The notes below the pieces were generated by a model. That model was not told where the DNA came from. It did not search any database and worked only from the letters and a program-made list of their open reading frames with translations. Positions 10,048-10,138 of a stretch of DNA of 64,000 nt are shown piece by piece. The translations under genes were made by a program, and so were the position numbers. The stretch comes from Demequina activiva. GTDB lineage: Bacteria; Actinomycetota; Actinomycetes; Actinomycetales; Demequinaceae. Location: NCBI RefSeq assembly GCF_016862815.1, contig NZ_BONR01000004.1:124001-188000 (forward strand). Direction: 5' to 3'. Position 1 is the first letter of the stretch. The number at the start of each line of letters is the position of its first letter.

Positions 10048-10075
10048 AAAAAAGCCTCCCAGGGTGCGGGAGGCT
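10048..10075 (-). terminator. Attenuator terminator in the cimA leader
   Basis: Read on the minus strand, AGCCTCCC (10075-10068), a 7-base loop and GGGAGGCT (10060-10053) form a perfect 8-bp stem followed by a T run (10053-10048). It lies between the leader peptide and the cimA ribosome binding site. A separate perfect 9-bp stem (10103-10095 with 10084-10076) begins at the leader stop codon. Its loop and arm hold CCTCCC (10088-10083), which could instead pair with the GGGAGG of the terminator. Confidence 0.8.
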
Positions 10076-10102
10076 GCGCGTCGGGAGGTTCTCGCCGACG
10101 CG

Positions 10103-10138
10103 CTACGGAATGATGATCGCGGTGTGCATCGGTGTCAT
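10103..10138 (-). CDS. cimA leader peptide (MTPMHTAIIIP)
   Basis: An 11-codon open frame on the minus strand, ending 105 bases before the cimA start, encodes Met-Thr-Pro-Met-His-Thr-Ala-Ile-Ile-Ile-Pro. Three consecutive isoleucine codons (ATC ATC ATT) sit just before the stop, which abuts a 9-bp hairpin and then an intrinsic terminator. This is the classical layout of amino-acid attenuation, and the amino acid counted is the end product of the CimA pathway. No strong ribosome binding site is seen for it. Confidence 0.75.
   Translation of the reverse strand: MTPMHTAIIIP

Follow-up and report, generated by a model that had tools for sequence, protein, structure and literature searches.

The window analysed here is a stretch of 64,000 nucleotides from Demequina activiva, a member of the class Actinomycetes (RefSeq assembly GCF_016862815.1, contig NZ_BONR01000004.1, positions 124,001 to 188,000). 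On its minus strand lies cimA, the gene for citramalate synthase, which catalyzes the first step of one isoleucine route, the threonine-independent citramalate route. Upstream of cimA we found a short open reading frame (ORF), two hairpins and a T run, arranged as follows (window coordinates).

8402..9997, minus strand: cimA, citramalate synthase, 531 aa (TIGR00977, 590.9 bits against a cut-off of 450; Pfam HMGL-like and LeuA_dimer)
10005..10010, minus strand: GAGGAG, likely ribosome-binding site of cimA (sequence, by eye)
10048..10053, minus strand: U-tract of the terminator, six T, the first of which is also paired (sequence)
10053..10075, minus strand: predicted terminator hairpin AGCCTCCC-GCACCCT-GGGAGGCT, directly adjoining hairpin 1 (terminator scan, folding, compensatory changes)
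10076..10103, minus strand: hairpin 1, GCGCGTCGG/CCGACGCGC, candidate antiterminator (folding; changes on both sides)
10109..10117, minus strand: control codons ATC ATC ATT, three Ile (sequence; relatives)
10103..10129, minus strand: leader ORF MHTAIIIP and stop, 8 aa (sequence; kept in relatives)
10137..10147, minus strand: extended -10 element TGTGCCACAAT, putative leader promoter (sequence; -10-like box in relatives)

The leader ORF reads ATG CAC ACC GCG ATC ATC ATT CCG TAG (10129-10103), and the G of its TAG stop codon is the first base of hairpin 1. Fifty bases separate the T run from the start of cimA. The neighbouring ORF on the opposite strand is divergent and begins at 10254, so that the terminator ends no other gene. 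A terminator scan of positions 9900-10400 returned exactly one site, the one described here (shuffles, mean 0.2), and the folding of 9998-10150 was better than that of 200 out of 200 shuffled sequences (z = -4.44). As is typical of attenuators, an intrinsic terminator is thus predicted between ORF and gene, on the basis of folding, the scan and covariation (see below). An earlier note on this DNA had named the gene as cimA and had described three successive Ile codons, a hairpin where the leader peptide ends and, after it, a terminator with a T run; all of these were recovered.

For comparison, loci were gathered by a search with the CimA protein, without any leader sequence, which yielded 123 loci including the window. 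CimA was present in 43 of the 44 genomes of the genus, the one miss being a genome that is 85% complete; 80 further CimA loci came from Demequina, Actinotalea, Cellulomonas, Cellulosimicrobium, Isoptericola, Sanguibacter, Promicromonospora and others. The leader layout was seen in all 43 cimA-bearing genomes of the genus, the genome of the window included, and is therefore more than a chance arrangement. Leaders were tested automatically for a box, a start, a peptide in frame, a stop and a T run; leaving the window aside, 120 of 122 loci passed, and with it 121 of 123. The two misses were L106, which lies at a contig end with only 22 bases before the match, and L103, whose leader is visible and for which the box pattern was too strict. 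Since the genus set and the 80-locus set overlap, the 121 passing loci reduce to 82 distinct leaders. All 82 end in TAG; the test pattern demanded a stop before CGCG, so that the place of the stop was built in, its identity as TAG (save one alternative) was not. In five of the 121 ORFs (L030, L065, L105, L107 and L125) the start had been set too far upstream, and these starts were reset for the larger set of 226 leaders described below.

The earlier note had suggested looking for conserved Ile codons in relatives, and this is what the comparison revealed. Ile occurred in 82/82 distinct leaders and at least twice in 72/82, which corresponds to the successive end-product codons that are expected in a short ORF before an attenuated gene. 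The position two codons before the stop was Ile in 80/82 (L110 and L122 carry Leu), the position three codons before it in 73/82, and the lengths of the leaders varied by whole codons. Ile made up 29.0% of the leader codons, compared with 21 of the 531 residues of CimA. The rare Ile codon ATT accounted for 70 of 183 Ile codons in leaders versus 44 of 1619 in the cimA match, and in the 80-locus set its share exceeded that of cimA in the leaders of 67 out of 78 loci. A plasmid search with the leader sequence gave no match.

The start of the leader was less straightforward. The earlier note had given an 11-residue peptide, and the corresponding ORF (MTPMHTAIIIP and stop, 10138-10103) does exist. 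However, its ATG (10138-10136) overlaps the 3′ end of the -10 element TGTGCCACAAT (10147-10137) by two bases and should therefore be absent from the RNA, an exclusion that rests on the position of the -10 box; the likely peptide is thus the octapeptide MHTAIIIP. An ATG at the codon position of 10138 was found in 56 of the 121 loci, window included, and a downstream start codon 6-8 nt after a -10-like box in 77 of the 82 distinct leaders. Judging by these positions, the cimA leader mRNA is probably leaderless and would begin with its start codon. A promoter scan reported no site at the leaderless start or at TGTGCCACAAT. It did report a match ATGACA-17 nt-CATCAT at 10138-10110 (shuffles, mean 0.0), which, if taken literally, would place the start of the RNA after the Ile codons and would count against our model. 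We regard this match as a chance one because CATCAT is part of the Ile codons and the first three bases of ATGACA are the ATG present in 56/121 loci.

To follow the leader beyond these loci, we used a covariance model, R1, built from 46 cimA leaders. In the genome of the window it reported a single site, the cimA leader. At the level of the order, 184 of 396 genomes had a match (E up to 0.01), and at that of the class 208 of 394 (E up to 0.001), CimA itself being present in 310 of these 394. Forty order-level matches, taken from the strong ones listed and spread over families, all lay immediately upstream of cimA and in its orientation. Among 98 class-level matches, made up of the top scorers and others from a range of families, the downstream gene was cimA in 78, ilvB in 16, ilvA-like in 3 and leuS in 1; at least three of these loci repeat order-level places (L234, L246 and L255), and L324, the same place as L265, was omitted. 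The family of the downstream gene was checked in one case each for ilvB, ilvA-like and leuS; the ilvA-like gene matched TIGR01127 below the cut-off and showed the PALP domain only. A further 20 second or weak matches (of 28 places, in genomes mostly chosen as weak or negative) preceded ilvB in 12 cases, leuS in one, cimA in one and none of these in six; the six places without a branched-chain gene (L223 and L225-L229; E 0.04-0.6) were excluded. Thirty genomes, mostly chosen because R1 was weak or absent, contained cimA in 14 cases, with the leader seen in six, unseen in seven and cut by a contig end in one. The seven loci with no visible leader count against our model; in four of them (L198, L201, L206 and L207), cimA lies immediately behind an ORF that we take to be ilvE. 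Four genomes of 6-10 Mb from family f37 bear the cimA leader (L277, L280, L282 and L286). In family f44, with genomes of 1.2-2.2 Mb, cimA occurs in many and no R1 match was among those listed.

With these matches, 226 distinct leaders could be compared, 193 of them upstream of cimA; four of 273 loci gave no ORF. All 193 cimA leaders contained Ile, and 171 contained the dipeptide II. Among ilvB leaders II was found in only 1 of 27, and the codons were those of Val and Leu, as in MRFGILVLH, MNIVVVLT and MQENLVVVPGRADR. The leuS leaders (L211 and L291) share the layout and encode MRFRLLLI and MNRALLA, with Leu control codons. Three ilvA-like leaders end in MAIT, MVIT and MAIT, with one Ile each; threonine deaminase catalyzes the alternative entry step into isoleucine synthesis. 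These three leaders (L268, L283 and L285; family f36, genomes G549, G460 and G443) precede a threonine-deaminase-like gene, and cimA lies elsewhere in these genomes. The control codons thus track the downstream gene: Ile for cimA and ilvA-like genes, Val/Leu for ilvB and Leu for leuS. As R1 was trained on cimA leaders, Ile in its cimA matches is partly built in; the codon change in its ilvB and leuS matches and the 82 leaders found by protein are not affected by this. This match between codons and gene further supports the earlier note, according to which the Ile codons before cimA fit the end product of the pathway.

Two additional RNA features lie in the window.

31734-31848, plus strand: SAM-IV riboswitch (Rfam RF00634, 56.1 bits)
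38115..38156, minus strand: sister ilvB leader, MQTILVVTGRADI and stop (ilvB by TIGR00118; sequence)

The stop codon of this ilvB leader falls within a stem-loop resembling hairpin 1, and its terminator ends near 38055 (window 38055-38156, minus strand). By eye it looks leaderless, its ATG following TAGAGT at a distance of 7 nt. R1 passed over this leader in the genome of the window. Just outside the window, at G000:C4:189076-189894 (plus strand), lies a serine/threonine dehydratase-like gene, a possible second route to isoleucine, that scored above the cut-off for NF006094 and about 165 bits for TIGR01127 (cut-off 378.75).

The two hairpins were examined in two alignments, A1 and A2, the latter comprising 74 leaders from the class. 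For hairpin 1, five of nine pairs changed on both sides in A1 and six of nine in A2. Over both hairpins this applied to 9/16 pairs in A1, with a covariation of 0.292 versus 0.175 after shuffling, a value reached in 0/500 shuffles; the number of further pair types was equalled by 39/500. In A2, 12/16 pairs changed on both sides, covariation was 0.414 versus 0.188, no shuffle out of 500 came up to the alignment on any of five measures, and sliding reduced the value to at most 0.082, although A2 was fitted to the covariance model and is biased towards it. Hairpin 1 is nearly invariant in its outer four to five pairs (GCGCG/CGCGC). A GTTG after the T run is at least 90% conserved in the A1 leaders. 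Several Cellulomonadaceae leaders (among L079-L100) carry, by eye, extra C-rich hairpin-like stretches such as CCGGGCACCACCCCCGCCCGG between terminator and cimA.

Spacing could be measured in 190 of the 193 distinct cimA leaders, 189 of which showed two hairpins. The gap between hairpin 1 and the terminator was 0-1 nt in 188 of these 189, and 0 in 156. The last Ile codon starts exactly 8 nt before hairpin 1 in 148/189 (range 5-13). In families f15 and f37 the ORF extends further and its stop lies inside the hairpin-1 loop, and the Ile codons stay before the hairpin. The conserved distance is therefore that from the Ile codon to the hairpin, not that from the stop codon. As a rough control for the abutment, 45 other terminator-like sites in the DNA of the loci were inspected; five of those listed turned out to be copies of the leader, leaving at most 40, possibly with more copies among them; seven of these had a strong hairpin within 1 nt upstream, and several look like chance sites within genes.

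Conserved Ile codons and the match between codon and gene support the reading of the earlier note. From the sequence comparison we estimate a probability of roughly 0.88 that the leader acts as an Ile-responsive, ribosome-mediated transcription attenuator; the explanation as a whole, an attenuator that senses charged isoleucyl-tRNA, appears nearly as probable. Sequence and comparison show the peptide with its codons, both hairpins and the distance between them, and folding predicts that hairpin 1 is lost at the stop codon. These features suggest the following course. RNA polymerase would start at the leader ATG, so that a 70S ribosome could load at the 5′ end and presumably translate the leader peptide. 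With ample isoleucine, the ribosome would clear the Ile codons, reach TAG and sit on the 5′ arm of hairpin 1. With that hairpin melted, the terminator would fold and transcription would end before cimA. With scarce isoleucine, the ribosome would wait at the Ile codons ahead of hairpin 1, which would persist. The base of the persisting hairpin, touching that of the terminator, would then block completion of the terminator and allow read-through into cimA. For sensible control of a biosynthetic gene, the presence of hairpin 1 should indeed mean read-through. This last step, in which hairpin 1 acts as an abutting antiterminator, we consider about an even bet.

The effect of the ribosome was modelled by masking the RNA with an assumed reach of 13 nt, counted from where the A-site codon begins; 11 and 15 nt were also tried. 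Over 189 leaders and with 13 nt, hairpin 1 had a mean pair probability of 0.98 in the free RNA. Placing the A-site on the first Ile codon lowered it to 0.83, on the last one to 0.45 and on the stop codon to 0.01. The order was unchanged with 11 and 15 nt, and the 15-nt footprint gave 0.21 at the last Ile codon. Since hairpin 1 is half lost at the last Ile codon, the model needs a stall at the first Ile codons. The terminator was predicted with a probability over 0.5 in 189, 189, 189 and 185 of the 189 leaders for the same four states (13 nt), and was kept in at least 184/189 for every ribosome position and footprint tried. As the terminator is almost always predicted, base pairing alone gives no switch. 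No conserved base-pairing antiterminator was found by masked folding of eight and then of 189 leaders, nor by the loop and extension tests. In the extension test, hairpin 1 could not take terminator bases in 183/189 leaders, and the reverse was impossible in 185/189. A long-range fold seen in the window leader, involving hairpin 1 and bases after the T run, seems by eye not to be common to relatives. If the ribosome sets the state of hairpin 1 and competition for base pairs is absent, hairpin 1 must affect termination otherwise; we infer that it excludes the terminator by steric or stacking means.

Attenuation by stalling could also operate with hairpin 1 as a pause hairpin only, read-through being set by timing or by contact between ribosome and polymerase. 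The failure of the masked folding, loop and extension tests to find base-pairing exclusion fits this idea, as may the distance of some 10-11 nt (counted by hand) from the end of hairpin 1 to a GYA that is common in the terminator loops, a spacing known from pause hairpins. Yet a pause does not by itself explain the contact with the terminator in 188/189 leaders, nor a rise of read-through on starvation, and we consider it unlikely, albeit a serious contender. Less probable still is a classical trp-type antiterminator that folding has missed, for instance a pseudoknot or a pairing of the hairpin-1 loop with the 3′ arm of the terminator. For Corynebacterium ilvB-II, the P1 loop is proposed to pair in this way with the terminator's right shoulder (PMC10272879), and isolated leaders such as L261 do have a loop match. 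Over 163 cimA leaders, however, complementarity between the hairpin-1 loop and the terminator 3′ arm was at chance level (mean z -0.07; six leaders under 5% of shuffles), and under masking the terminator was retained in at least 184/189. Trp-type pairing with the terminator stem was looked for by masked folding, loop and shared-base tests, pseudoknots being covered by the loop test only, and was not found; for this reason we do not file the cimA leader as classical trp-type.

A constitutive terminator or the end of a small RNA, with a peptide and Ile codons that have no sensing role, is very improbable. Codon changes in the Streptomyces coelicolor ilvB leader were without effect, as reported in the accessible part of PMC1262725, which speaks for this reading and against our model. 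Against this reading stand the conserved Ile, the gene-wise switch of codons, the enrichment of ATT and the common 8-nt spacing, and the divergent gene needs no terminator here. Direct ligand sensing by a riboswitch or a T-box-like contact with tRNA has next to no probability, given that neither the window leader nor 20 related loci had an Rfam match at gathering score (the best sub-threshold match over the leader had 14.8 bits of 35 needed, on the other strand) and that the stretch before hairpin 1 varies by whole codons.

The preferred reading, an attenuator sensing charged isoleucyl-tRNA, turns isoleucine control of threonine-independent synthesis into a simple reporter question, and the cimA leader offers a small, codon-programmable control part. 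The absence of a base-pairing antiterminator raises the question of how an adjoining hairpin blocks a terminator. Tentatively, and with somewhat less than even odds, we propose a module shared among actinomycetes: a leaderless sensor of 7-18 codons and two abutting hairpins, fitted to cimA, ilvA-like genes, ilvB and leuS mainly via the control codons, in which the antiterminator abuts the terminator with no competition for base pairs. The earlier note knew of no described attenuator for cimA. Our literature search for one acting on cimA or the citramalate route, outside which subscription papers mostly lay, likewise found none, yet R1 matches more than half of the class genomes (208/394), and 78 of the 98 matches examined precede cimA.

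Among known systems, the mycobacterial polycysteine attenuators have a leaderless sensing ORF like that of cimA, but respond to cysteine and are described as translation attenuation. In the available text of a 2005 survey of Actinobacteria, structures are given for Trp, Cys and Leu/ilv genes, along with T-boxes of ileS; no other pathway has one there (PMC1262725). The comparisons that follow likewise refer to the accessible parts of the papers cited. In Streptomyces lividans, short peptides precede amino-acid genes (ilvL, leuL1, leuL2, trpL1 and others), most of them leaderless and some with Rho-independent terminators; cimA is absent from the eight leaders given there (PMC8079986). The ilvB1NC operon of Mycobacterium tuberculosis resembles the cimA locus in its apparently translated uORF with LVVI control codons and its Rho-independent terminator, and changing the control codons to Ala led to low, dose-independent reporter expression; it differs in its 166-nt leader, its proposed mutually exclusive terminator and antiterminator, and its gene and codons (PMC13236596). 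The Corynebacterium ilvB-II motif likewise consists of a P1 stem-loop over a uORF followed by a P2 terminator, but concerns ilvB only, and its proposed loop pairing is unsupported in the cimA leaders (PMC10272879). In Corynebacterium glutamicum ilvBNC, terminator mutants had large effects and antiterminator mutants moderate to weak ones (PMC11857589). Its hairpins share a GCC trinucleotide, whereas those of the cimA leaders share no base in 183/189; its third hairpin covers the translation start, and the control codons of the cimA leaders are Ile. Common to both are branched-chain control codons, a start codon at or near the transcription start (one nucleotide away in ilvBNC; probably at it in cimA) and an antiterminator whose base adjoins that of the terminator (PMC11857589), as the base of the candidate, hairpin 1, does in the cimA leaders. 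We class the cimA leader as a probable leader-peptide attenuator, broadly defined, and place it near the ilvB attenuators of actinobacteria.
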